This document shows, one piece after another, positions 552 through 19,664 of a stretch of 20,064 nucleotides of DNA. The position numbers and the translations under genes were made by a program. The DNA lies in IMG/VR virus record IMGVR_UViG_3300025671_000708, positions 1 to 20,064 of that record, one strand, 5' to 3'. The stretch comes from a virus. Positions within the stretch are counted from its first letter, which is position 1; the number at the start of each line of letters is the position of its first letter. The notes under the pieces are model-generated. The model had not been told where the DNA came from and searched no databases. It was given only the letters and a program-made list of their open reading frames with translations.

Positions 552-722
552 ATGAACATAGAGAACGCACAATATTCTGCTGATAATGGTGAAAACGTAA
601 GCGTCAACGCAACCATTAACGGTATTACAGTGTCAGTCCCACTTGACCCAGCCAACCGCCACTACGCTGAGATACTACGCCAAGTAGAAGCTGGCACCCT
701 GACCATAGCGGATGCTGATTGA
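552..722 (+). CDS. Small conserved phage protein, 56 residues, tail region
   Basis: ATG at 552 directly follows the TAG of the fibre gene and the frame closes with TGA at 720-722. The product begins MNIENAQYSADNG and has a central V-S-V-P-L-D-P stretch and an acidic C-terminus (TIADAD). Small proteins of this appearance often follow fibre genes in marine phages, but I know no function. The zero-base spacing upstream and the TGATG junction with the next gene argue for a genuine, translationally coupled gene. No membrane segment or signal peptide is visible. It could be a small chaperone or accessory to the fibre; that is inference from position only. Confidence 0.65.
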   Translation: MNIENAQYSADNGENVSVNATINGITVSVPLDPANRHYAEILRQVEAGTLTIADAD

Positions 723-1447
723 TGCTAGGCGCGGTTGCTATATCAGAACGAGGCATATCAGATCAGGGTGTAATTCTTCCCGGTTCTGAAACGCTGACTG
801 CCGCCTTTACGAAAGCAAACAACGGAAACCTAACACTAGACGGTTCTGCTGACTTAGAGGCTATTGCCACCAAGACATCTATAGCCGTAGGTATTCTTGT
901 GGGGATTATGGAATCATCCACAATCTTTACACAGACCACAGTGCCTACACGGTTTGCCACTGGTATTTCAGCTAGCGTGACCAGTTTCGACCAATCATCA
1001 ACATTAGATGTTATTGTTGACGGGGTTTCGGAACAGTCCTTTAACTTTACGCAAGATGCAGAGGGTGTGCGCTTTGCCACTATCGTGTCAGAGCAGGATG
1101 CTAACTTTACTCAAAGCACCGCTCCAAACATGATATTTGCGGCGGTGTCAGAGCAGGATGCTAACTTTACTCAAGGAACTAATGGCGGTATAGTAAAGCT
1201 CGGTGAATCAGAGCTTATCTCTGTATTTACACAAATAGCTTCGGGTGGTTTTGTTAGGTTACTTGAGTCCGAAGTTTCAGCGGTATTTATACAAACCGCC
1301 GATGGTAGGTTATATTGGGACGACTGGGCGCAGTCGCCAAACAACTCACCCCCTGAAGCGTGGGTTCAAATTGTGCCAACTGGCGGCACATGGACAGAAA
1401 TCAACGCGGGTGGTACAGTAGAGATATGGACACAAAAGGTGGTTTAA
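722..1447 (+). CDS. Virion-associated repeat protein: nine exact 20-residue repeats ending in FTQ
   Basis: The frame can start at ATG 722 (241 residues) or at TTG 719 one codon earlier; ATG is preferred because it overlaps the preceding TGA. The sequence from residue 12 to 191 divides without any insertion or deletion into nine 20-residue units that end in F-T-Q or a variant; the third residue from the end of each unit is at 29, 49, 69, 89, 109, 129, 149, 169 and 189 (F in all but the second, where it is A). Units 6 and 7 share VSEQDANFTQ. A Trp-rich tail follows, with A-W-V-Q-I, T-W-T-E-I and I-W-T-Q-K. Such fixed-pitch repeats with alternating hydrophobic residues suggest a beta-solenoid or stacked beta-hairpin rod. 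Its place between fibre and collar genes suggests a tail-tip or fibre component. I recall similar FTQ repeats in other marine phages but no assigned role. Confidence 0.75.
   Translation: MLGAVAISERGISDQGVILPGSETLTAAFTKANNGNLTLDGSADLEAIATKTSIAVGILVGIMESSTIFTQTTVPTRFATGISASVTSFDQSSTLDVIVDGVSEQSFNFTQDAEGVRFATIVSEQDANFTQSTAPNMIFAAVSEQDANFTQGTNGGIVKLGESELISVFTQIASGGFVRLLESEVSAVFIQTADGRLYWDDWAQSPNNSPPEAWVQIVPTGGTWTEINAGGTVEIWTQKVV
1085..1174 (+). repeat. Perfect 30-base direct repeat with 60-base period
   Basis: Bases 1085-1114 and 1145-1174 are identical over 30 bases, and both neighbouring bases differ on each side. The distance is exactly 60 bases, one 20-residue unit of the surrounding repeat protein. 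The other units match only at the protein level, so this pair is the most recently duplicated or gene-converted one. Confidence 0.9.
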
Positions 1448-2568: not shown

Positions 2569-4674
2569 ATGCCGCTAACAAAGCTACAGTTCCGACCCGG
2601 AATAAATCAGGACATAACCTCATATTCAAATGAGGGCGGCTGGCGTGATGGTGACAAAATCAGGTTTCGTCTGGGCTACCCCGAAAAAATTGGTGGCTGG
2701 CAAAAGTTTTCTGAGTCTACTTATGAGGGAGCCGCCCGTGCGCTTCATAACTGGATCGCATTAGACGGATCTAACTATCTAGGTGTCGGAACACATCTTA
2801 AATATTACATCGAAGAAGGTACGTCTTTTAATGACATCACACCTATCCGCGAAACCACTGCGGCAGGTGCTATAACATTTGCTGCGACAAACGGCAGTTC
2901 AGTTATAACTGTTACGGACACAAGCCACGGTTGTCAGCAAAATGACTTTGTGACCTACACAGACGCGGCTTCTCTGGGCGGAAATGTTACAGATGTTATT
3001 TTAAATCAAGAACATCAAATAACCCGTGTTATTGATGCCGACACATATGAGATTACTGTTAGTGTAACAGCAAATGCTTCAGACACAGGTAACGGTGGCG
3101 CTTCTGTTGTAGGCGAGTATCAAATTAATGTTGGTTTGAACACAACCGTGGGCGGCACAGGCTGGGGTGCAGGTTCATATGGCGGTGTTTCTGGTCATAT
3201 CCCAGCAGCGACAACACTATCTGGAAACATAACTGCTGGCGTTGCAACTATTCCATTAACCAGCGTCGCTGGTTTCCCGACATCGGGCTACGTTGTTATA
3301 AATGGCGAAATAATTCAATACACAGGTGTTTCTTCCCCTAACTTAACAGGTGCTACACGGGGTTTGTTTGGAACAACAGCTTCCGCCCACAGTAGCGGAG
3401 ATACAGTTACAGAAGCAACTTACGGTTGGGGCATGCCGTCTTCACTGTCAACCACAACTCAGATCCGCCTTTGGTCGCATGATAACTTTGGCGAAGACTT
3501 GCTTATAAACCCACGAGATTCGTTTATTTATTATTGGGACAAGTCCGGCGGTGCAGGCGCAAGAGCCGTGGAACTATCTACACTAACTGGAACTAAGACA
3601 TCTGTGCCTACGGTATGTAAACAGGTAATGGTTTCTGACCGTGATCGACATGTTTTAGCTTTTGGGTGTGATGGCATTAACCCTAGCTCTTCTGCAACAC
3701 AAGGGGATGAAGTTCAAGATCCGCTACTTATTCGATTCTCAGATCAAGAAGATCCGCTAGACTGGTATCCATCCGCGACTAATACTGCTGGCGACTTGCG
3801 CCTTGGTTCTGGGTCTACGTTTGTTAAGGCAATAGAGACAAAACGTGAGATCTTGGTGTGGACAGATACGGCGCTCACTTCACTCCGGTTCATCGGGCCA
3901 CCATTTACTTTTGGTCTGCAACAGCTTGCCAACAACATTACTATCATTGGCCCTAACGCGGCAGTAGCTACGGAAGACTTTGTGTTCTGGATGGGGTTAG
4001 ATAACTTTTATGTCTACGCTGGTCAGACAGCGCAGTTACCTTGTACAGTTAAGGACAAAGTGTTCGCCGACATTAACTTGGCTGAATTTGATAAAGTCTA
4101 CGGCGCAGTTAACAGTGAGTTTGGTGAGGTGTTTTGGCTTTATCCGTCCGCCGCATCATCAGAAAATGACAGGTATGTCGTGTATAACTACATCGACAAA
4201 ATTTGGTATTTTGGAACACTCAGTAGAACAGCATGGTTGGATCGTGGCACAAGGGACTTCCCAATTGCAGCAGAAAGCGGGTATTTATATAACCATGAAT
4301 TTGGTTACGATGACGATGGTCAGCCTATGGATTCCTTCATAGAGTCAGCGGCGATGGATCTTGGCGATGGCGATCATTTTGCATACATCCGCCGCGTCAT
4401 ACCGGATCTTACTTTCACTGGTTCGACTGCGATTAGTTCGCCGCAGGCTACTTTTACGCTCAAGGCGCGTAATTTTCCGGGCGAAGATTTTGGTAATACA
4501 GCGGCGGGGACTACATCAAGAACAGCCGTAAGCCCTGTTGAAGAATTTACAAATCAGCTAGATCTTCGTGTTCGTGGACGTTCTTTTGCAATTCGTGTAG
4601 AATCTAACGCATTAGAATCAAAATGGAAACTTGGAAGCCCCCGCGTGGATATTAGACAGGACGGTAGACGCTAA
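2569..4674 (+). CDS. Gp10-like head/tail structural protein (DNA-stabilisation or tail-hub type)
   Basis: The 701-residue product begins MPLTKLQFRPGINQDITSY and continues with GGWRDGDKIRFRLGYPEKIGGW, a start I know from structural proteins of marine podoviruses. A later section, about residues 405-500 (REILVWTDTALTSLRFIGPP, then F-T-F-G-L-Q, EDFVFWMGLDNFYVYAG), follows the layout of the P22 Gp10 family, which closes the portal after packaging; many of these proteins fold as beta-propellers. Between about residues 95 and 285 there are two inserts that look like separate beta modules: ITFAATNGSSVITVTDTSHG to YEITVSVTA, and LSGNITAGVATIPLTSVAGF to GATRGLFGTTA, the latter with an EIIQYTGV core found in other phage proteins. 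The gene starts 8 bases after the collar fibre and its TAA overlaps the next ATG by one base. Gp10 kinship is a memory-based assignment of medium strength. Confidence 0.7.
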   Translation: MPLTKLQFRPGINQDITSYSNEGGWRDGDKIRFRLGYPEKIGGWQKFSESTYEGAARALHNWIALDGSNYLGVGTHLKYYIEEGTSFNDITPIRETTAAGAITFAATNGSSVITVTDTSHGCQQNDFVTYTDAASLGGNVTDVILNQEHQITRVIDADTYEITVSVTANASDTGNGGASVVGEYQINVGLNTTVGGTGWGAGSYGGVSGHIPAATTLSGNITAGVATIPLTSVAGFPTSGYVVINGEIIQYTGVSSPNLTGATRGLFGTTASAHSSGDTVTEATYGWGMPSSLSTTTQIRLWSHDNFGEDLLINPRDSFIYYWDKSGGAGARAVELSTLTGTKTSVPTVCKQVMVSDRDRHVLAFGCDGINPSSSATQGDEVQDPLLIRFSDQEDPLDWYPSATNTAGDLRLGSGSTFVKAIETKREILVWTDTALTSLRFIGPPFTFGLQQLANNITIIGPNAAVATEDFVFWMGLDNFYVYAGQTAQLPCTVKDKVFADINLAEFDKVYGAVNSEFGEVFWLYPSAASSENDRYVVYNYIDKIWYFGTLSRTAWLDRGTRDFPIAAESGYLYNHEFGYDDDGQPMDSFIESAAMDLGDGDHFAYIRRVIPDLTFTGSTAISSPQATFTLKARNFPGEDFGNTAAGTTSRTAVSPVEEFTNQLDLRVRGRSFAIRVESNALESKWKLGSPRVDIRQDGRR

Positions 4675-6870: not shown

Positions 6871-9276
6871 ATGGTACTTGATCCTAGGACCTTGACTCCT
6901 GCCGCTGTTAAATCAATGTTTTTAACACAGCAACAGCCAACCCTTAGACAATCTGTAGTTAATCAAGCTAGTCAACAGCCGATGTCGCTAGCTGATTTAA
7001 TACAGGGCCAAGCTGGTGCGCAACCGCAAAACCAGCCTACAAGCGCGGGTATTTTAGATAATCTGACAAATAAACAAGCGATGGATATTGGTACTCAAAT
7101 GTTTGGGCCAACCCTAGCTAACGCTGATCCTAAAAAGATCGTTTCTATGGCGACAGATAATCCTGATGACGTAGACCCAGCGATGGAAGAACTGTACAGG
7201 TCTAATCCTGACTTGGCTAAAATTTTAGGTGCATCAACTAAACTAGCTGAAGAAGAAAAAGCTACTTCTGATCTTTTAGCAAATATTCTCAATGATAAAA
7301 CAACACCTGACGAAGCTAGGGCAGAAGTTAATAAATTCTTCGGAACTGACCCTGATAAAGAAACACCTGTTTGGGCAGATGTTGCCTTAACTGTTGGTTT
7401 AAGCCTACTACAAGGCGAGGGCGGTAAGGGTGAGTTTCTTTCTGACCTTGGAGCCGCTGGACAAAAAGGATTCGCTGTTGCTAAACAACGTGGCGCTGAA
7501 AAACGTGCGCGTTCAGACACTCTTAATAAGTTAGCTTTTGGTATTTATCGTGAAGATGAAAAGCAAAGAACTACGCTAGCCGCCCAGCTTCGTCAAAACT
7601 TGAGTAAACTTCGCACCGATCAACAAAAGTTTGGTCTGGACATGGCAAAGTATTTTCAAAAAGAAGAAGAAATAGATGCCACTATAGCGAAAAACCGTGG
7701 TACGGCAATTACTCAAACTTTAAATACTCTTTCTGACGATTTAAAAGCTAAAGCGTTTCCTATTATTGCTCGTAACGCTGATGTATTTAAAGGCGTTGAG
7801 CCAGATAATGTAGCGTCTACTATGTTCGGCTTACTAAAAAGCAAGGGCTTAAATCTTGATGAGGTTTCGAATTCTAAGAATATTGTAGAGTCTAGCTTTA
7901 CTATTACTGATAAGGAAACTTATGACGCATATAAAGCTAAGTTCCCTAATCGGTTCCCTGAAGAATTTCAACAGGGCAAGGAATACAAGGTTGAAGGTTT
8001 TAGCGATAAGTCTAAAGCTGGAACAGATATGGCGCTTACAAACGTCCTTGGTGTACAAAAGTCTGTAGGCGGTCAAGATAGTATTACTCGTTTATTAACT
8101 CAAAGAGACGAGCTTCAAAGAGCTATTCTAAACACAACTGACGAGACTGAAAAGAAAAGGCTACAGGCACAGCTTGGTTCTATTCAAGGTGCTATTGATT
8201 TACAATCAACTCGTAAAGCTCCTTTATCTTATGTGTTTGCTGACGGTCAAATGGTTGCGGCTGGCGAAGGCGCGGCTGGAGCGTACCAACAAGCCGATGC
8301 AATTTCTAAAGCAACTGAATTAGGTAAACAAGCTAACGCTCTTGCTTCAGCTTATGGTCTAGCCGACGGTCTTTCTCAAACTTTGGCTTCTACACCAACT
8401 CCTGCGGATTCAACTGGTGTCTTTGCATTACTTGGTAAATTTTCTGGTGGTGTTAGAGGCCAGCTCGGCACTGTAATAAACGCTTTTGGTGATAAGGCTT
8501 CTGACAACGAAGGTTCTTATCTTAGTGGGAATATTACAGACTCTATGCGAAGCAGTACAGAAAGAGCTGTGTCAGGTGGGCTTGGAGCAGGTAAGTATAG
8601 CGTAGGGCAAGTTTTTAAGGCTTTTGAAAAAGCTACCGCAGGCAACACCGAACTGCGAAGCCAACTTATGAGCTTTGCATACGCTCTAGCGGGTAGCCGA
8701 GAAACAGGTAAGCTGACAGATAAAGACGTTGCGGCAGCTCTTGTTACATTCGGTGGCGGTGATATTGCAGAAGGTAAATGGTTTGGTAATCCAGACGTAC
8801 TTGTTACTGGTATTAACCAAGCCTTAACAACAGCTACTAATGATTTTGCTATACGCTATAATAAACTTCACCAAAGCCCCGGAAATCTAAAATATTTAAA
8901 AGATGTTGAAGGCTTAGATGACGAGAGTATTGCAAAGCGCACAGCGTTTGACGTAAACGACTTCTTAAAAAAGAACGAAGGTATTAGAAAAGGTCTTAGT
9001 AGCCGAGTTATTTATGACGGTGCGGGTATTAAAATGCAAGGTCTTGATAAATATCGAGGTGATGGCGGCGGCGCTGTAGACTCTCCACAAGGTTCAACAG
9101 GGTTATCGTCAAACGCTTTAAATTATATAGGTGTTCTTAATAATTCAGCGGCTCGTAATAAGCTAGACCCGTCAGACGCAAATTATTTATCTAATGATCA
9201 GTTAGATATGATTGTTAAATCAATTCCTGCAGACATATTAGCTGAAATTAAAGAGTATAGAGCAAGGAACCAGTAG
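6871..9276 (+). CDS. Putative large internal virion protein, 801 residues
   Basis: AGGAG at 6859-6863 precedes ATG 6871; the TAG at 9274-9276 overlaps the GTG of the next gene by one base. The N-terminal 60 residues are rich in Gln and Pro (FLTQQQP, SQQPMSLADLIQGQAGAQPQ). Residues about 170-200 (ADVALTVGLSLLQGEGGKGE, then FLSDLGAAGQKGFAVAKQRG) begin a long helical, charged region up to about 280 that may form a coiled coil. The rest is mostly helical with a Ser/Gly-rich section near 500-580. No lytic transglycosylase, peptidase or nucleotide-binding motif was found. Size, composition and neighbours suit a podovirus internal core or ejection protein; no homologue is named with confidence. Confidence 0.7.
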   Translation: MVLDPRTLTPAAVKSMFLTQQQPTLRQSVVNQASQQPMSLADLIQGQAGAQPQNQPTSAGILDNLTNKQAMDIGTQMFGPTLANADPKKIVSMATDNPDDVDPAMEELYRSNPDLAKILGASTKLAEEEKATSDLLANILNDKTTPDEARAEVNKFFGTDPDKETPVWADVALTVGLSLLQGEGGKGEFLSDLGAAGQKGFAVAKQRGAEKRARSDTLNKLAFGIYREDEKQRTTLAAQLRQNLSKLRTDQQKFGLDMAKYFQKEEEIDATIAKNRGTAITQTLNTLSDDLKAKAFPIIARNADVFKGVEPDNVASTMFGLLKSKGLNLDEVSNSKNIVESSFTITDKETYDAYKAKFPNRFPEEFQQGKEYKVEGFSDKSKAGTDMALTNVLGVQKSVGGQDSITRLLTQRDELQRAILNTTDETEKKRLQAQLGSIQGAIDLQSTRKAPLSYVFADGQMVAAGEGAAGAYQQADAISKATELGKQANALASAYGLADGLSQTLASTPTPADSTGVFALLGKFSGGVRGQLGTVINAFGDKASDNEGSYLSGNITDSMRSSTERAVSGGLGAGKYSVGQVFKAFEKATAGNTELRSQLMSFAYALAGSRETGKLTDKDVAAALVTFGGGDIAEGKWFGNPDVLVTGINQALTTATNDFAIRYNKLHQSPGNLKYLKDVEGLDDESIAKRTAFDVNDFLKKNEGIRKGLSSRVIYDGAGIKMQGLDKYRGDGGGAVDSPQGSTGLSSNALNYIGVLNNSAARNKLDPSDANYLSNDQLDMIVKSIPADILAEIKEYRARNQ

Positions 9277-12209
9277 TGGCGCAAAACGATATCATCGACC
9301 TTGATCCTTTGATCTTGCAAAGATTAGATTCTTCTGCGGCTCAAGCTAGAGCTGGCGGAGCGATACCTAATGCTGATCCTAATGCTCTTAGTGGTCCTTT
9401 CTTTATGCCGCCAGAGCCAACAGGGTTTGAAGGCCAAGGATATTCAGCAGACTTTATGTCGCCGGAGGATGAATTTATTCAACCTATGCGCGAGTCTATG
9501 GCTACGAAACTTCAAAGAGCTGGCGTATTAAATGAAGGCGCACCGACTGGTCTTCGGTTTGATTTAAGTACCGCTTCTGTCTATGACCAAGACTTACAAA
9601 CTAAAAATGTCGAACATAATTTAAAGCGGTATTTTAAAGATAAAGGTCTAGTCAATGACGACTATGACTTTGCTGTTCGTGTTGGTCCTGTAAGCGAACG
9701 GCTTGAGTTCAAAGACCCAAGATTCGACGGCAAATATAACGTGCTTGACGCTTTTGGTATAAAAGATATACAGGGCGACATAGCAGACGTTTCAGTTGAT
9801 ACCTTATTGCCAATCGCGGCTGAAGTCACAGCGGGTGTCGGGACTGCTATGGTTCCGGGTGTTGGTCAAGTTCCGGGTGCGCCTATTGCGGCGGCGGCAC
9901 TAGCGGCGACAATAACATCTTTTGGTAGGCTGAAATACGCTCAGTCTCAAGGATATCTTGCGCCTGAAGTTAACGATGAAGAAATAGTTTATCAAGCCTT
10001 AAAAGAAGGCGGGCTGAGTGCTGCTTTCGGTCTGGGCGGTCAAGCTGTATTTAAAATGGCTAAACCTGTACTACGCTCACTTGGTATGGCTAATCCTAAG
10101 TTTCAGTTTGATATAGACGAAGAAGTTTTCTTACGAGCATACGAAAGATATATGGCAACTCCAGCTGGTAAAACAGCCGCAGAAAAAGGAGTTATGCCTA
10201 GCTCTGCTCAGCTTTTAGAACAAGTATCAAAAGACCAATCTATTTCTTCTGCCGAACGCGGTATTCTTCAGGCTTCTGCAGAAGAATTAGCGGCTCAAGA
10301 AGCAAAGGTGGCTACCTCCCCTGCGCGAGATATTGCGGAAGGTGTTTTAACACCAAGTAGAACTAGAACACTCGAAGCAGAACGAGCTGTTACTGAAGCG
10401 GCTGAAAGTGGAACAATGCCTGTTGGTGTTGCGGGTACTTCAGCGCGGATGGGTGAATCAGAGGCGGCGGCTCTTGGAACTGGGATTCAACGCGAAGCTA
10501 TTGTTCAAGCTGAAACACTTGGTCAACAAGCTCAACGTACTTTAGATACAGAGCTTGCTAATGTTCAAACTGTTATAGACGATGCGGTAAACTTACCAGA
10601 AAGTTTAGCTAGTCCCTCGCAAGTCGGTACGTCTGCAAGAGACGCTATCGGAGAGTCTTATCAAAAAGCTGCAGACGCTATCGGTAAAGCATATGAAGAT
10701 GTCTTTACGCGGTGGACAGCGGCTACAGGCAATACACTTGATTCAACAACTGTTGGTATTAAGCCATCAGAAGCGGCTCGTCTTGCCGCTGATATTCGTA
10801 AAACTTTTGGCGACAGACCTTTCTTGAATGACGCAGAACGTAATGTTGTTGAAAAAGTTTATAAGAACTTTGTAACTGGTGAACGCGGCGGCGCTCTTTC
10901 AGTAAAGGAAGTCTCGCTTCGTACAATTAACGAAAACCTCCGCGACCTTCGTAGACTTGAGCGCCAAGCCTACAGAAAAACATTAAGCGGAGAGGACGCT
11001 CCGTATCCTGAAACTCTTTCTAAGATGGTAGACGCCTTAGAAGAAACAAGACGTCGGGTACTATCACGCAAAGATGCACCTCCGGGGTTAGCTGACGAGC
11101 TACGGGCTTTAGACGATCAGTTTGCAGACTTTTCTACAAAGTTTCGTAATGTACAAAAATCAGCTGTTGCTAAACTTCGTACAGCTAAAAGTCCAGAAGC
11201 CGCATTTAATATGGTCTTTCAAAAAGATCGGTTAGGTCGCACCGCCGCCCTTGACATTGCGGACGAACTAAAGCTACCAGAAAACGCAGATTTATTTGCT
11301 ACGGTTGGACAAACCATACGCAAAAAATGGCTAGATACTGTTGTAAAGCGTGATCCTAAGACGGGGTCTATTACTAAAATTGATGTAGCCGCACATAATA
11401 AGTTCCTTGACGAATATGGCGCGGTTATGGAATCGTATCTTAGCTCTGCAGAAAGAAACGCTCTTGGTTCTGCTACACAGCTAGCTGACAGAGTAATTGA
11501 AGCTAACGCTCGTCGGACTGCAGCTTTACGAGAAATAAATAATAAACTTGAGCTTGGTGGCGGTAAAATCCTAGAGCCAGAGCGTATCTTTGAAGAAACA
11601 TGGAAGAAGGGCCGTATTTCAAGATTTGATGAAGTCTTGCTTTCTTTAAATAAAGATGAAGGTCTTAAAGATACTTTCAAGGCTTTCGTTTATAAAGATA
11701 TGTTTGACCCAGCGGCTGGTCGTACAAAAACTATAAACGGTCGTGAGGTTATTGACCCTGACCAAATGCGCCAATATATTGACGGTAACAAGGACAAACT
11801 AGGTAAACTGTTTGGTCAAGATTATGTAAATAACTTACGGGTCGTTGTTGATGCTGTAGAAGCGGCACTTACAGAAGTACCTACACGGGGCGCTCGTAGA
11901 GAAAATAATTTCTTAACACAGGCCGTCCGTTCTTATGTCGGTGTGTTTACTCGTCCCGGTCGTGTTATTACTGCCTTTAACAAAATACGCGGTCGCGTTA
12001 GCGAAGACGCCATGACCCTTGGCCTTTCTGATCCTCGCAAACTAGCAGAGATGGCTAAGTCAGCTAGACGTGGACCAATAGTTAAGGAAGTCGATCGTGA
12101 GCTTGGTCGTATATTCCTTGGTCGGTATGACTACCCCTCTAATTCTGAACTAGATGTTTATAAACCTTCCCAAGCACAGGCTATTCTTGACGAACTAGAG
12201 GCACGGTAA
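9276..12209 (+). CDS. Putative large internal virion protein, 977 residues, GTG start
   Basis: The start is GTG at 9276, sharing its G with the preceding TAG, so translation probably depends on the upstream gene. The product is the largest in the window. Residues about 176-215 are an uncharged Ala/Gly/Pro/Val stretch (LLPIAAEVTAGVGTAMVPGV and on to AAAALAATITSF) that could cross or line a membrane. Residues about 330-450 are Ala/Glu-rich and likely coiled coil, followed by several long charged helices (RRLERQAYRKTL, RRRVLSRKD). The C-terminal quarter is basic (RGARRENNFL, SARRGPIVKE). No catalytic motif is evident. As the last and longest of the ejection-type genes it sits where T7-like phages carry their biggest internal core protein, but no sequence kinship to T7 gp16 is claimed. 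Confidence 0.7.
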   Translation: MAQNDIIDLDPLILQRLDSSAAQARAGGAIPNADPNALSGPFFMPPEPTGFEGQGYSADFMSPEDEFIQPMRESMATKLQRAGVLNEGAPTGLRFDLSTASVYDQDLQTKNVEHNLKRYFKDKGLVNDDYDFAVRVGPVSERLEFKDPRFDGKYNVLDAFGIKDIQGDIADVSVDTLLPIAAEVTAGVGTAMVPGVGQVPGAPIAAAALAATITSFGRLKYAQSQGYLAPEVNDEEIVYQALKEGGLSAAFGLGGQAVFKMAKPVLRSLGMANPKFQFDIDEEVFLRAYERYMATPAGKTAAEKGVMPSSAQLLEQVSKDQSISSAERGILQASAEELAAQEAKVATSPARDIAEGVLTPSRTRTLEAERAVTEAAESGTMPVGVAGTSARMGESEAAALGTGIQREAIVQAETLGQQAQRTLDTELANVQTVIDDAVNLPESLASPSQVGTSARDAIGESYQKAADAIGKAYEDVFTRWTAATGNTLDSTTVGIKPSEAARLAADIRKTFGDRPFLNDAERNVVEKVYKNFVTGERGGALSVKEVSLRTINENLRDLRRLERQAYRKTLSGEDAPYPETLSKMVDALEETRRRVLSRKDAPPGLADELRALDDQFADFSTKFRNVQKSAVAKLRTAKSPEAAFNMVFQKDRLGRTAALDIADELKLPENADLFATVGQTIRKKWLDTVVKRDPKTGSITKIDVAAHNKFLDEYGAVMESYLSSAERNALGSATQLADRVIEANARRTAALREINNKLELGGGKILEPERIFEETWKKGRISRFDEVLLSLNKDEGLKDTFKAFVYKDMFDPAAGRTKTINGREVIDPDQMRQYIDGNKDKLGKLFGQDYVNNLRVVVDAVEAALTEVPTRGARRENNFLTQAVRSYVGVFTRPGRVITAFNKIRGRVSEDAMTLGLSDPRKLAEMAKSARRGPIVKEVDRELGRIFLGRYDYPSNSELDVYKPSQAQAILDELEAR

Positions 12210-13515: not shown

Positions 13516-13955
13516 ATATAGATCAGTTAAGAAAAGACTTAGAAGCTGACGAAGGCTGTAAGTATGAAATCTATTTAGACCACTTAGGCTACCCAACTTT
13601 CGGTATTGGACATCTTATTACTAAACAAGATGAAGAGTTCGGAGAGCCAGTTGGCACTCCAATATCTGAGGAACGAGTAAAGAAAATTTTCGAAGAAGAT
13701 ATAGAAATGGTCTTAGAAGATTGCGATGACTTGTTCGAATATTTTGATACTTGCCCAGAAGAAGTTCAGCTAATCTGCGCTAACATGTGCTTCAATCTTG
13801 GCTACCCTAGGCTTTCTAAATTTGAAAACTTTAGGGATGCGGTAGATAATGAAGACTGGCAAAAAGCCGCAGATGAGATGGTCGACTCACGTTGGTATCG
13901 TCAAGTAACTAACCGTGCTGAGCGTCTTGTTCAGCGGATGCGAGCGGTTGAATAG
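13512..13955 (+). CDS. Endolysin, T4-type lysozyme (GH24)
   Basis: The 147-residue product aligns in outline with T4 lysozyme: D-E-G at residues 13-15, L-D at 22-23, and Y-P-T-F-G-I-G-H-L at 27-35, giving a Glu14 / Asp23 / Thr29 triad with the same spacing as Glu11 / Asp20 / Thr26 of T4. Further matches are TPISEERVKKIFEEDI, the N-M-x-F-N-L-G turn and SRWYRQVTNRAERL near the end. It cleaves the glycan strand of peptidoglycan. No signal or SAR segment is present, so export depends on a holin; the gene overlaps the three-TM holin at ATGA (13512-13515). Its last 47 bases are shared with the opposite-strand regulator gene. At 147 residues it is a little shorter than T4 lysozyme. Confidence 0.92.
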   Translation: MNIDQLRKDLEADEGCKYEIYLDHLGYPTFGIGHLITKQDEEFGEPVGTPISEERVKKIFEEDIEMVLEDCDDLFEYFDTCPEEVQLICANMCFNLGYPRLSKFENFRDAVDNEDWQKAADEMVDSRWYRQVTNRAERLVQRMRAVE

Positions 13956-14133
13956 AAACTTCATAACCCATCTTATTTAGGACTTTATTGAAGTTAGCCA
14001 GCGTTGGTTGTCTTTGTTTAGACTCCCAAGTGTATACTGTTATCAGGCTAACACCTGTACCGTCCGTAACTTCTTTTTGACTTAAACCAGAAGTCTTTCG
14101 TATCGTTTTAAATTCTTCGATTAAATCAGCCAT
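13909..14133 (-). CDS. XRE-type helix-turn-helix regulator, 74 residues
   Basis: The frame reads MADLIEEFKTIRKTSGLSQ, then K-E-V-T-D-G-T-G-V-S-L-I-T-V-Y-T-W-E-S, Q-P-T-L-A-N-F, a standard Cro/CI helix-turn-helix (helices 2-3 around residues 18-40). ATG 14133 is chosen, but TTG 14142 in the same frame (77 residues) lies four bases after an AGGAG and may be the real start; the ATG is 13 bases from that site. The gene overlaps the end of the SNF2 helicase by 13 bases, so it is the second gene of that reverse operon, and its 3' end overlaps the lysozyme gene tail to tail. It may repress the adjacent divergent control region or act as an antitoxin-like regulator without a visible toxin. Confidence 0.82.
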   Translation of the reverse strand: MADLIEEFKTIRKTSGLSQKEVTDGTGVSLITVYTWESKQRQPTLANFNKVLNKMGYEVSIQPLASAEQDAQHG

Positions 14134-15563
14134 TTTTTCCAATCTTCTCCTAAGACTTCTGTCGCTATATTTATCTTCTTGCGAAGTGCGCCTACTATCT
14201 TTTCGTCCACCGTTTTTTCTGCGACTAAGTCTATATAGGTCACAGAGGAAGTTTGACCAATACGGTGCGCTCTATCCTCGGATTGCAACCTTACCTCAAG
14301 ATCATAATTATTACTATAATAAACTACAGTTGAAGCGGCAGTTAATGTAAGGCCATAACCACCTGTTCTTGGCTGACCAACAAAAAACCGTAACTCATCT
14401 TTAGTCTGGAAATCGTTTACTATCTCTTGCCGCTTTTCCCCGTCCGTATCTCCGAAGTAAGAAGCCACGGAACTTGGACCATAGACCTTTGCTATGTTTT
14501 CTTCTATAGCCATAATATCGTGTCGGTAGTTAGCCCAGATAATCGCCTTGCCGCTTACTTCTTCTAATATAGACATAAGCTCAGAGAGTCTATTGTTCTT
14601 TATTTCAACAGTGTTTCCTTCGTCTGTATTTACGAAGCCGCAACTTACTTGGTGCAGTCTAAGAAGCTGTGTAATAACTGCATTAGCCGATACCATTTCC
14701 ATATCATCTAGCAAAGCAACCGCGCTACTCTTGAGCTGGTTGTAGACCGTCTTTTGCTCCGGCGTTAATTCTATAGACCGCATGATATAATTCTTTTCAG
14801 GAAGATCAAGACATTCTTCCTTAGTTACGCGGTACGAAAAAGGCTGTATAGATTTAGTTAATTCATCCAAGTTTCTGAAACCTAGGATTTGATTGTACTG
14901 ATGCGCTCCGCCGTTTCGTTTTATCATATCAGCGTAACGGCTACAAAATGAGTAATAAGATCTGAAGCCTAGTAATTCTTCGCCAAGAAACAAGAACTGA
15001 GAATAAAGGTCCAAGGGTGACTTAGTAATCGGTGAGCCAGTCAGTATTCGCTTGTACCTAGCTAATTTAGCAACTCGTACAGCGGCCTTGGTTCTTTTTG
15101 CTTTGTGGTTTTTAATAACGGTAGATTCGTCAATAGCTACAAGCGTTTTCCCGCCGTGCATTCGTATAAACCCTGCCGCAACATCTTCAGCCTTACCGCT
15201 TGAAAAAGCCTCTATGTTCATAACAAAAATATGCAGGTCGAAGTTAGGCTTCCAAATTTCGCGTATAGCATCTTTATGTGCCTTAGACAATGGGGACGCC
15301 CAATACGCAGTCTTGGCTTCTATATGCTCCGGCATATGTGTGGGTAGTTCTTTCCCTACCCAGTTTTTGTATACGCCCTTCGGAGCTAAGATAAGAGCCG
15401 AATCAATCTTCCCCGCATCGTATAAAGCCGCGATAGTATCAATAAGGACTTTAGACTTACCAGTACCCATGTCCATTAACAGCGCAAACTCCTCCTTTTT
15501 CCAAGACTCTTGGAGGGCTTTTAGCTGATGGTCATAGGGTTTAGTTTTAAATACGAAACCCAT
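14121..15563 (-). CDS. SNF2-type superfamily 2 helicase/ATPase, 480 residues
   Basis: The protein has the SF2 order: a Q-motif-like P-Y-D-H-Q-L-K-A-L (9-17), Walker A MDMGTGKS (30-37), LILAPKGVYKNW (58-69, motif Ia), DEST at 145-148 in place of DEAH, LTGSPI (174-179, motif III), IIWANYRHD in the second RecA lobe (motif IV), and SEDRAHRIGQ near residue 430 (motif VI), the clearest SNF2/Rad54 signature. Such phage proteins translocate on duplex DNA and are thought to remodel protein-DNA complexes or forks; a specific role is unknown. It lacks nuclease or chromodomain extensions. Encoded on the reverse strand, it starts 82 bases from the divergent HD gene; GTAGAAAGGTAGG precedes its ATG. The downstream regulator overlaps its end by 13 bases. 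Confidence 0.9.
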   Translation of the reverse strand: MGFVFKTKPYDHQLKALQESWKKEEFALLMDMGTGKSKVLIDTIAALYDAGKIDSALILAPKGVYKNWVGKELPTHMPEHIEAKTAYWASPLSKAHKDAIREIWKPNFDLHIFVMNIEAFSSGKAEDVAAGFIRMHGGKTLVAIDESTVIKNHKAKRTKAAVRVAKLARYKRILTGSPITKSPLDLYSQFLFLGEELLGFRSYYSFCSRYADMIKRNGGAHQYNQILGFRNLDELTKSIQPFSYRVTKEECLDLPEKNYIMRSIELTPEQKTVYNQLKSSAVALLDDMEMVSANAVITQLLRLHQVSCGFVNTDEGNTVEIKNNRLSELMSILEEVSGKAIIWANYRHDIMAIEENIAKVYGPSSVASYFGDTDGEKRQEIVNDFQTKDELRFFVGQPRTGGYGLTLTAASTVVYYSNNYDLEVRLQSEDRAHRIGQTSSVTYIDLVAEKTVDEKIVGALRKKINIATEVLGEDWKKWLI

Positions 15564-16373: not shown

Positions 16374-16700
16374 ATGGCAACTGTGTATCTTATCCAAGAT
16401 TTTGGGTATTGGAATCTTGTCCCTGCAAAAGACTTTGGCAAGATAAAAGTGTTACTGCCGCCTCGGAAACAAATTATTTTCAGCTCTGCGCCTGTCGTAC
16501 AAAGATTGCGTGAGGGGCTAAGAGGTATCACTAAGGATGACTTCTTGTTATTGTCTGGTGATCCAGCGGCTATCGGTGCCGCGTCCGCTATCGTAGCTGA
16601 AAAGCTCGGTGAACTTAATCTTCTAAAGTGGGATAAAAGAGAGGGGGTTTACTATCCTGTAAGAATCAATCTCAGTAATTACGGAGAAATAGATGAGTGA
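16374..16700 (+). CDS. Conserved marine-phage protein of unknown function, 108 residues
   Basis: AAGGAG at 16357-16362 precedes ATG 16374. The sequence begins MATVYLIQDFGYWNLVPAKD and contains K-V-L-L-P-P-R-K-Q-I-I-F-S-S-A-P, then DDFLLLSGDPAAIGAASAIV and NLLKWDKREGVYYPVRINL. The S-G-D-P-A-x-I-G and N-L-L-K-W-D phrases are conserved in a family I have seen repeatedly in marine phages next to primase genes; no activity is known to me. It has no membrane segment. It overlaps the next gene by 8 bases and so belongs to the replication operon; a small replication or regulatory partner is the best guess. Confidence 0.75.
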   Translation: MATVYLIQDFGYWNLVPAKDFGKIKVLLPPRKQIIFSSAPVVQRLREGLRGITKDDFLLLSGDPAAIGAASAIVAEKLGELNLLKWDKREGVYYPVRINLSNYGEIDE

Positions 16701-17256
16701 TTTACTCGACGATATCCTCGGGAGCGAGGCGATAAATACTCTTTCTGTCGAGGCATCCGACGACGAAATTCGTCGAATAGCTGATCTTGCTAATAAACAG
16801 CTAAGTCTGCAACAACAGGTCGCTGACCTAGAGGAACAGATGAAAGCTGCAAAGGAAGAACTTCGGGTTGTACAAGAACACGATCTTCCTGACGCAATGG
16901 CAGAGGCTGGTATATCTGAAGTTAAACTAGCCGATGGCTCGAGAGTCAAAACCGAACCTTTTGTAAACGCAAGCATCACCAAAGCTAAAGCTGATAAAGC
17001 TCATGCTTGGCTAGTAGAAAACGGTCATGGTGATCTAATTAAGCGCGAGGTTATAGCGAAATTTGGCAGAGGTGACGATAAGTTTGAAAAAGCGCGGTTA
17101 GCACTTTTAGAACATGGTATCGCGGCTGAAACCAAAGAAGCTGTACACCACATGACCTTAAAAGGGTTTGCAAGAGAACAGATTGAACAGGGTAAGGACT
17201 TACCTGTTGACTTGTTCAATCTTTATTCCGGCTCCAAAGCCACCATTGCCAAATAG
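16693..17256 (+). CDS. Coiled-coil phage protein of unknown function, 187 residues
   Basis: GGAG at 16683-16686 precedes ATG 16693, which overlaps the upstream gene by 8 bases. Residues 33-66 form a clear coiled coil (NKQLSLQQQVADLEEQMKAA and on), joined to a compact domain with EVKLADGSRVKTEPFVNASI, HAWLVENGHGDLIKREVIAK and HHMTLKGFAREQIEQGKDLP. The acidic N-terminus (MSDLLDDILGSEA) may be flexible. The organisation resembles Gam-like or small replication-accessory proteins, but no family can be named. It lies directly before the SSB candidate, with only 11 bases between, so a role in DNA replication or recombination is inferred from context. Confidence 0.75.
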   Translation: MSDLLDDILGSEAINTLSVEASDDEIRRIADLANKQLSLQQQVADLEEQMKAAKEELRVVQEHDLPDAMAEAGISEVKLADGSRVKTEPFVNASITKAKADKAHAWLVENGHGDLIKREVIAKFGRGDDKFEKARLALLEHGIAAETKEAVHHMTLKGFAREQIEQGKDLPVDLFNLYSGSKATIAK

Positions 17257-17267
17257 GAGAATTAAGA

Positions 17268-18074
17268 ATGGCATCTAAAGAAGTAGCTGTAAAACAGCAA
17301 CAGGCCTCGGCTGTAACTGTTATTGACGATGATTTGTTGTCGGCAGGAACAGGTCTTGAAAATGTATCTTCAGATGATATGGCGATACCATATCTTATGT
17401 TGCTACAGGCTCTAAGCCCACAGCTTAATAAGCAAAAAAGTAAATATGTTGAAGGCGCTCAGCAGGGCGAAATCTACAACAGCGTTACTGGTGAGACTTT
17501 TGATGGCGACGAAGGTATCGTTGTCATTCCGTGCTTTTATCAAAAGAAGTACGTTGAGTGGACACCACGCGAAAGCGGTGGTGGTATTGTAGAAAGCCAC
17601 GATAGCCGCGAAATTTTGGCAAAAACCACGAAGAACGATAGAGGCCAGCAGGTTTTAAGTAATGGTAATTACATTGCAGAAACTGCTTACTTCTACGTTA
17701 TGGTTTGTAACGAAGACGAAAGCGAATGGTCTCAAGCCTTGATCAGTATGACTTCTACACAGCTTCCGAAAGCTAAGAAGTGGATTAGTCAAATGACTCA
17801 GCGGAAGGTACAAAACTCTGCTGGGGAAATGGTTAACGCCCCGATGTTTATGTTTAAGTATCGGTTGAAATCTAACGCCGAGCAAAACGACCGTGGTTCT
17901 TGGTATGGTTGGTCTATCGGGCTAGAAGGTCCCACACAAAACCCTGTTATTATGCAAGAAGGCAAACGCTTCCTGCAAAATATTAAAGGCGGTAACGTGA
18001 AGGTTCAAGAAGACCCCGATGCGGATCAAAACTCCTCAAGTAAAACAGATTTAAACGACGAAGTGCCGTTCTAA
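17268..18074 (+). CDS. Candidate single-stranded DNA-binding protein, 268 residues
   Basis: AGGAGA at 17255-17260 precedes ATG 17268. The main domain (about residues 40-240) begins MAIPYLMLLQALSPQLNKQK and is rich in Tyr, Trp and Phe in alternating strands (VVIPCFYQKKYVEWTPRES, TAYFYVMVCNEDESEWSQAL, FKYRLKSN, GSWYGWSIGLEGP), as expected of an OB-like beta fold. The last 30 residues are disordered and acidic and end DLNDEVPF, much like the D-D-D-I-P-F tip with which bacterial SSB recruits partners. Placement before the primase and helicase agrees. I have seen this family annotated only as hypothetical; SSB function is inferred from tail, aromatic content and context, not from a recognised domain. 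Confidence 0.62.
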   Translation: MASKEVAVKQQQASAVTVIDDDLLSAGTGLENVSSDDMAIPYLMLLQALSPQLNKQKSKYVEGAQQGEIYNSVTGETFDGDEGIVVIPCFYQKKYVEWTPRESGGGIVESHDSREILAKTTKNDRGQQVLSNGNYIAETAYFYVMVCNEDESEWSQALISMTSTQLPKAKKWISQMTQRKVQNSAGEMVNAPMFMFKYRLKSNAEQNDRGSWYGWSIGLEGPTQNPVIMQEGKRFLQNIKGGNVKVQEDPDADQNSSSKTDLNDEVPF

Positions 18075-18079
18075 TCAAA

Positions 18080-18105
18080 TAGGGTGGCGTTTCGGCGTCA
18101 CCCTA
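18080..18105 (+). other. Stem-loop with UUCG tetraloop between SSB candidate and primase
   Basis: AGGGTGGCG (18081-18089) pairs with CGTCACCCT (18096-18104) with one G-T wobble; T18080-A18105 and a U-G closing pair (18090/18095) extend it to 11 pairs around a TTCG loop. It starts six bases after the stop of the SSB candidate. The following AACTTTACTT is not a clean U-tract, so it is at best a weak terminator; it may limit read-through or stabilise the 3' end of the abundant upstream message. Confidence 0.65.
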
Positions 18106-18128
18106 ACTTTACTTGTCTGGAGATAGAA

Positions 18129-19664
18129 ATGAATAACATAGAAAGATTTGCTGGTCTATTCGCTGGACTAAGGTTAGCGTATGGTAGTTATCGCCCTAAT
18201 GAAGATAACGGTCCGGGAAAACAACGTGGACAATACCGAGTTGTTAGTGAAGATATTAGTGACGAGCGTCTTATTGAGCTCTGGTCTAATCACCTATCGG
18301 GTAGCGAATCCGTGGGAATTGTACCCATTAGAGAAGATAATTCTTGCGTTTGGGGTGCTATTGATATTGATCAATATCCTCTTAACCATTCTGACCTTGT
18401 TGAGCGATTAGTAAAAAGAAACGAACTTCCTTTTGTAATAGCGCGGTCTAAATCAGGCGGTGCGCATGTTTATTGTTTTGTATCTGAGCCTGTCCCTGCA
18501 GCAACAATGCAGAGTAAATTAAAAGAAGTTGCTTCCGCCCTTGGTTATGCAACTGCTGAAATATTTCCAAAACAAACAAAGCTACTGTTAGAAAAAGGTG
18601 ACAGGGGTAACATATTAAATATGCCGTACTTCGGCGGCGAAACTTCTACACGTTATTGCCATAACGATAACGGCGAAGGAATCTTGGACCTTAGTGCTTT
18701 CTTAGATTACGCTGAAGCTAAAAAGATAACAAAACGTGAGCTTGAAAACTTAACCCCTAAAAATATAACAAGCGCTGAAACCGATCAAGATTTAGAGGGC
18801 GCTCCACCTTGTCTCAAGGTTCTTTGTTCTGTTGGCTTTCCCGAAGGAACAAGGAACAACGGCCTGTTTAGCATTGGTGTATTCTTGCGTAAGAAGTTCC
18901 AAGACGATTGGGAACGCAAGCTAGAAGAATTTAATTTCAAGTATCTTAAACCACCGCTAGGTGCTAGCGAGGTTTTGACTGTAGCCAAGGCGCTAAACAA
19001 TAAAGACTATATGTATAAGTGTAATGACCAGCCGATCGCATCGTATTGTAATGCGGCTGTTTGTCGTACATGCGAACACGGTGTTGGTTCATCTGGCGGG
19101 TTGCCTCAGTTTGGTAATCTTCAAAAGCAGGACTCAACACCTCCGATCTGGTTCCTTGATGTAGAGGGTCATCGAATAGAGTTAACTACAGAAGAACTAC
19201 AAAACCAAACTAAGTTTCAAAGACGCTGTATGGATGCTTTAAATTTTATGCCGCCTACACAGCGACAAAACAACTGGCGAAATATTATTCAGCAGTTACT
19301 TGATTCGGTATCTATAATTGAAGTACCGCACGATGTTTCTATACAAGGTCAGTTCCAAGAGCTACTTGAAGCGTTTTGTACAGAACGTGCGCAAGCTCAA
19401 AATAAAGATGAAATCTTGTTGGGTAAACCGTGGTCAGAAGACGGTAAAACTTTCTTCCGCTTGAAAGATTTATTAGACTATTTTACCCGCCAACAGTTCA
19501 GAGAGTATGGGCGTAACCACATCGCGGCTAGAATACGCGAGATGGGTGGTGGGGATCATTTCTTCCACATAAAAGGCAAAGGGGTTACAGTTTGGTTTAT
19601 CCCCGAGTACGCGATGCAAAGCGGCGGCTATGACCTTCCCAATATGCAAGAGGAGCCGTTCTAA
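18129..19664 (+). CDS. AEP-family primase (TOTE-type archaeo-eukaryotic primase domain)
   Basis: ATG 18129 gives 511 residues and follows GGAGAT (18119-18124); an in-frame GTG at 18084 lies inside the stem-loop and is rejected. The AEP core shows KQRGQYRVV (31-39), the metal-binding AIDIDQY with Asp79 and Asp81, and SKSGGAHVYCF (107-117) with His113 of the S-G-x-x-H motif, then NMPYFGGETS. A Cys-rich section near residues 296-320 (KCNDQPIASYCNAAVCRTCE, HGVG) has the spacing of a metal site common to these proteins. The C-terminal 180 residues have no helicase motif, so the partner helicase is separate, presumably the next gene. It should make primers for phage replication. The protein ends NMQEEPF, like the SSB candidate. 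The TAA overlaps the next ATG by one base. Confidence 0.85.
   Translation: MNNIERFAGLFAGLRLAYGSYRPNEDNGPGKQRGQYRVVSEDISDERLIELWSNHLSGSESVGIVPIREDNSCVWGAIDIDQYPLNHSDLVERLVKRNELPFVIARSKSGGAHVYCFVSEPVPAATMQSKLKEVASALGYATAEIFPKQTKLLLEKGDRGNILNMPYFGGETSTRYCHNDNGEGILDLSAFLDYAEAKKITKRELENLTPKNITSAETDQDLEGAPPCLKVLCSVGFPEGTRNNGLFSIGVFLRKKFQDDWERKLEEFNFKYLKPPLGASEVLTVAKALNNKDYMYKCNDQPIASYCNAAVCRTCEHGVGSSGGLPQFGNLQKQDSTPPIWFLDVEGHRIELTTEELQNQTKFQRRCMDALNFMPPTQRQNNWRNIIQQLLDSVSIIEVPHDVSIQGQFQELLEAFCTERAQAQNKDEILLGKPWSEDGKTFFRLKDLLDYFTRQQFREYGRNHIAARIREMGGGDHFFHIKGKGVTVWFIPEYAMQSGGYDLPNMQEEPF

Follow-up and report, generated by a model that had tools for sequence, protein, structure and literature searches.

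The repeat gene and its neighbours

We analysed a window of 20,064 nucleotides that covers positions 1–20,064 of IMG/VR virus record IMGVR_UViG_3300025671_000708. The gene of interest occupies positions 722–1447 on the plus strand, starts with ATG and encodes a 241-residue protein built from 20-residue repeats. It is packed tightly between its neighbours: its start overlaps the preceding stop codon (TGATG), and its stop codon abuts the following ATG (TAAATG). Upstream on the same strand are the C-terminal part of a tail fibre protein (3–551; phrog_4492) and, directly adjacent to the repeat gene, a gene for a 56-residue protein (552–722) whose counterpart is gp52 of phage Venkman. Downstream, also on the plus strand, are a fibre protein with a tail collar domain (1448–2560; PF07484) and a "stabilisation" virion protein (2569–4674; phrog_3287), which serves as a syntenic anchor. 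Only the neighbours of the repeat gene fall into structural families in Pfam and PHROGs.

The remainder of the window holds several other genes of note. Two large proteins of 801 and 977 residues are encoded within 6871–12209, after an ejection-protein-like gene; neither has a PHROGs match, and the 977-residue protein has no Pfam match. A small helix-turn-helix regulator (HTH_3; 13909–14142, minus strand) overlaps a SNF2-type helicase gene (14121–15563, minus strand); the rest of the window is encoded on the other strand. Two genes within 16693–18074 match families named for gp33 and gp34 of cyanophage Pam3 (PF23984 and PF23977). They are followed by a primase (18084–19664) that matches both the TOTE conflict-system archaeo-eukaryotic primase domain (PF22548) and the phrog_21866 primase.

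The repeat protein consists of a short N-terminal cap, nine units and a Trp-rich tail, all encoded on the plus strand. The cap spans residues 1–11 (MLGAVAISERG; 722–754), and most relatives retain its motif M(F/L)GxxAxSE. Autocorrelation of the 241-residue sequence peaks at a lag of 20 among lags 5–79 (z = 10.6), followed by lags 40 and 60. To locate the units we used a 20-position profile trained on relatives, from which the window protein and its relatives of 72–76% identity were held out. This profile yields exactly nine peaks, at every twentieth residue from 12 to 172, scoring 14.9–35.3 bits, and the best of 2000 shuffled sequences reaches 11.4. The units, with their nucleotide positions, terminal tripeptides and scores, are unit 1 (residues 12–31; 755–814; FTK; 22.2), unit 2 (32–51; 815–874; ATK, lacking the Phe; 18.9), unit 3 (52–71; 875–934; FTQ; 19.7), unit 4 (72–91; 935–994; FDQ; 14.9), unit 5 (92–111; 995–1054; FTQ; 25.4), unit 6 (112–131; 1055–1114; FTQ; 27.8), unit 7 (132–151; 1115–1174; FTQ; 35.3), unit 8 (152–171; 1175–1234; FTQ; 24.2) and unit 9 (172–191; 1235–1294; FIQ; 23.5). 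The original prediction had placed the third-last residue of each unit at 29, 49, 69, 89, 109, 129, 149, 169 and 189 without a single insertion or deletion, and both the translation of the reading frame and the held-out profile agree with this. Its description of a common FTQ ending is literally true of five units but not of the other four, in which the tripeptide starting at 29, 49, 89 and 189 varies. At the DNA level, an exact 30-nucleotide direct repeat is present at 1085–1114 and again 60 nucleotides downstream at 1145–1174, the first copy ending at the border of unit 6 and the second at that of unit 7.

The tail covers residues 192–241 (1295–1444). The three Trp residues noted earlier (W214, W224 and W236) are present, but the list was incomplete, as W199 and W202 also belong to the tail. 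Trp residues are spaced 10–12 apart in the tails of relatives. The C-terminal part of one relative (L036, 2471–3250) has a tail that is itself repetitive; extra copies of a tail unit of about 10 residues (WTPIxHSGDT) occur in relatives and seem to have been acquired separately from the 20-residue units. In composition, the window protein has no Cys and about 1% Pro, and Ser and Thr together make up 25% of the repeat region. The same region contains only 8% Gly, so composition gives no support for a gp38-type adhesin, which we set aside.

A family with whole-unit gain, loss and swapping

A direct search returned four close relatives at 72–76% identity. Further relatives were gathered using the conserved neighbour at 2569–4674 as an anchor, combined with profile searches of the fetched loci. 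The resulting set comprises 131 ORFs whose stop codon lies inside the locus, corresponding to 85 distinct complete proteins of 156–411 residues, in which the number of units ranges to more than 10. Of 114 classified loci, 109 have the collar gene and, after it, the "stabilisation" gene downstream of the repeat gene. A recognisable homologue of the 56-residue ORF precedes the repeat gene in 32 of those 109, and the full order reads fibre, small ORF, repeat protein, collar, stabilisation. The protein belongs to a group of uncultured aquatic, mostly marine phages and is encoded within their tail-fibre gene cluster. Values of dN/dS across 12 pairs of relatives lie between 0.05 and 0.21; the repeat protein is therefore translated and conserved, and purifying selection on its gene is strong overall.

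The family has no name in Pfam or PHROGs and is probably one of the tandem beta-repeat phage structural proteins. Scans of the repeat protein and about 15 relatives against both databases gave nothing above cut-off, and a PDB sequence search found no family match; the earlier statement that no named fold or family is known for it holds for these three resources. The best PDB profile match was to viral capsid proteins (E = 0.016), which we judged not credible. The pentapeptide repeat (PF00805; A(D/N)LxX) was rejected as well, being absent from the window protein and scoring 10 bits in one relative (L121) against a Pfam cut-off of 20.2. Among INPHARED isolates the window protein found no match, and matches to two other family members were insignificant. 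No relative was found in bacterial and archaeal genome contigs, and no matching description was found in the literature on 20-residue repeats. The diversity of the full family alignment (A2) precluded pattern searches.

The pitch of the repeats is nearly invariant across the family. In 74 complete members, consecutive detected units are 20 residues apart in 516 of 553 cases and 21 apart in 24; the other 13 spacings are mostly 40 or 42, probably because an intervening unit escaped detection. Protein length follows the same grid. For 40 members, representatives chosen at an 80% identity level without merging proteins of different length, a period of 20 fits the lengths best among periods 5–40 (R = 0.78), with a nominal p of about 1e-11 that is too optimistic because the members are related. 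Fixed pitch, as the original prediction proposed, and gain or loss of entire copies, which it suggested looking for among related phages, are both supported well beyond the window, and indels inside units are rare among relatives.

Comparisons of individual pairs show that units are gained, lost and swapped whole. The clearest case is a near-clonal pair (L066, with 280 residues, and L094, with 240), 99.7–99.9% identical over 5.8 kb, which differs by an exact in-frame deletion of 120 nucleotides, or two units, lying between similar unit copies. A second pair (L007 and L041) differs by 80 residues, equal to four units. All these contigs are metagenome assemblies, in which repeat collapse could partly account for copy-number differences. 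Other members are mosaics. L036 and L070 share only 25–55% identity per segment over their first 50 or so residues and 80–100% in later repeat units, and the start of L036 matches a third member (L016) at 91–100%. The joints in such mosaic pairs lie close to unit borders. Some pairs have diverged further in their repeat units than in the Trp tail or the adjacent genes; in L124 and L136, for example, units are 25–75% identical, the Trp tail is 80–100% identical and the downstream DNA 85–91%.

Likely counterparts in cultured and other phages

Several other phages encode proteins of comparable design. The closest are gp51 of the Methylophilales phage Venkman EXVC282S, a cultured OM43 phage of host H5P1 (QLF88126.1; 238 residues; period 20, z = 11.9), and UOF77505.1 of podovirus ctXG6705 (258 residues; period 20, z = 10.7). 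Like the window family, both have an N-terminal cap resembling MxGxxxFSxxPxSxLxG, which in Venkman gp51 reads MYGLSAFSQSPYSALG, and a Trp tail. Their unit sequence differs, being ASISGTATLTADGLRIRFGN as against SEQDANFTQ in the window family. The Venkman gene order matches that of the window, with tail fibre gp53, the 59-residue gp52, gp51, collar gp50 and stabilisation gp49. Venkman gp53 matches phrog_4492, the fibre family also found in the window, and gp52 is 38% identical to the 56-residue window protein over 45 residues (E = 5e-8 in a single comparison). Searches with tblastn gave no direct match between the family members searched and isolate phages. In hhalign comparisons with the family profile, which were pairwise only and involve repetitive sequence, Venkman gp51 scored a probability of 93% and the ctXG6705 protein 95.5%. 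Homology at the level of the repeats is suggested by profile similarity rather than firmly established. By sharing its caps, Trp tail and gene order with the window family, Venkman brings the repeat protein within reach of laboratory tests.

Further counterparts are gp68 of Pelagibacter phage HTVC023P, whose N-terminal cap is LLGITAISQSPIASLG, and WJZ48131.1 of phage DSL-LC04. In both, as in the window protein, a Trp tail comes after tandem beta-like repeats, but their period is 22 rather than 20 and their units are of a VTG type. Only the Trp tail of HTVC023P gp68 aligns with the window family (35% probability). Related repeats also occur in MEP402 gp62. We found no characterised function for the counterparts in Venkman, ctXG6705, HTVC023P, DSL-LC04 or MEP402, and the portions of the OM43 phage papers that we consulted contain no discussion of a gp51-type protein. 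In the public record QLF88126.1 is annotated as a "putative E3 ubiquitin-protein ligase HERC6" and UOF77505.1 as a "serine-rich adhesin"; these names, carried at L167 7001–7717 and L166 4689–5465, look like products of spurious similarity.

Predicted fold and probable role

The family-wide unit profile is roughly [ST][ST]xGxx[IVL]xxGxS[ED][LQM][DS]AxFTQ. Phe18 (89%) and Gln20 (68%) are its most conserved and most informative positions, and together with position 19 they are the least often substituted between orthologues. Position 7 is hydrophobic, and the segment 12–20 is amphipathic. AlphaFold2 was run on the window protein (41 alignment rows; pLDDT 43.0, pTM 0.27) and on L121, the most regular nine-unit relative (53 rows; pLDDT 43.5, pTM 0.34). 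Both models are of low confidence, with pLDDT below 50 for most residues, and values this low would fit disorder or an obligate oligomer as well. Both place two strands in each unit, at about positions 5–9 and 12–20. AlphaFold2 is known to draw unjustified solenoids from repeats (PMC11795689). The strongest covariation connects positions i and i+2 within strands (6–8, 12–14, 15–17 and 17–19); the analysis gave no signal between strands and hence no strand pairing. The two predicted strands and the i,i+2 covariation make beta strands in the unit likely. A Foldseek search with the low-confidence model returned a PDB list made up mainly of beta-solenoids and beta-helices, none significant (best E = 0.86). 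The "beta rod" of the original prediction is thus backed in its strands, which prediction and covariation both favour, but not by a confident model of the whole; equally, prediction as a monomer gave no confident globular fold to set against it.

We favour the reading that the product of the gene is a virion protein belonging to the tail-fibre module, in which an N-terminal cap is followed by a rod of nine stacked units and then the Trp tail, and give this a probability of roughly 55%. Its position among fibre genes, stop-to-start gene stacking, beta repeats and capped ends suggest such a virion rod, which would probably be adjustable and carried on the virus tail. We found no proteomic evidence of the window protein or any relative in particles. 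Each unit would comprise a short strand (about 5–9), a two-residue turn containing Gly or Ala (10–11) and a longer amphipathic strand (12–20), and a four-residue turn (1–4) would join it to the next. Units would stack one per turn, as in a solenoid, so that the rod would lengthen by a fixed step with each unit. Known beta-solenoids such as filamentous haemagglutinin/haemolysin A and CsgA likewise have coils of about 20 residues, side chains alternating in and out, and invariant stacked residues; they differ in that the window family has no PF07012 match and that the Foldseek similarity is not significant. Homologous recombination between units would alter the length and exposed faces while leaving the fold intact, making the unit the quantum of recombination. 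Whole-unit length change and swapping, with the cap and tail persisting, fits either a shaft or a surface displayed for binding.

The same unit could instead form a trimeric triple beta-spiral shaft, in which three chains would wind around one another, each unit supplying two antiparallel strands connected through a tight Gly turn. Most fibres are trimers, and a trimer would suit both the fibre-gene neighbours and the failure of AlphaFold2 on a single chain. The predicted pair of a short and a longer strand, with a two-residue Gly/Ala turn between them and a four-residue linker after them, also suits a spiral repeat, and adenovirus shafts would resemble the window protein in combining two strands with a tight turn in each unit, in a fixed rise and in a neighbouring fibre function. 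The best known triple beta-spirals, however, have repeats of about 15 residues with variable outer loops, whereas the repeat here is 20 residues and its loops hardly vary; no PDB sequence match links the two, and the weak AlphaFold2 topology looks solenoid-like. We regard the spiral as possible but doubtful. A similar weight, that of a tentative option, falls on a receptor-binding adhesin whose repeat surface recognises the host and is diversified by unit swapping. Mosaicism, the place directly after the fibre gene and the pairs in which units outpace the Trp tail and neighbours in divergence, such as L124 and L136, speak for it, but the low dN/dS and the lack of any Pfam or PHROGs match to a lectin or adhesin domain do not, and this reading overlaps the rod model and may be identical to it.

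A disordered, low-complexity linker without a fold would account for the low pLDDT and the Ser and Thr content, but it sits poorly with conserved Phe18 and Gln20, a hydrophobic position 7, an amphipathic second strand, strand-like covariation and the nearly invariant pitch, and we think it distinctly unlikely. Curli genes occur in some marine phages (PMC9599517, PMC9004378), and a curli-like secreted amyloid would share the similar unit length, Gln/Ala-rich beta units, absence of Cys and scarcity of Pro. This last idea is highly improbable: across 16 records holding relatives or HTVC023P, some of them fragments, there is neither a Curlin repeat (PF07012) nor CsgG (PF03783; 0 of 16), and the repeat gene lies among fibre genes, not secretion genes.

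Returning to the favoured rod, a bolder version would make it a new beta-fibre fold in which the 20-residue unit is both structural turn and recombination unit, allowing length and surface to be tuned in fixed steps between constant caps; we consider this rather improbable. Near-clonal gain, loss and swapping of whole units would offer a clear example from nature of a modular rod with its length set by copy number. Naming the family would improve the annotation of abundant aquatic phages, as the likely counterparts in cultured OM43 and SAR11 phages are currently misleadingly named or nameless.
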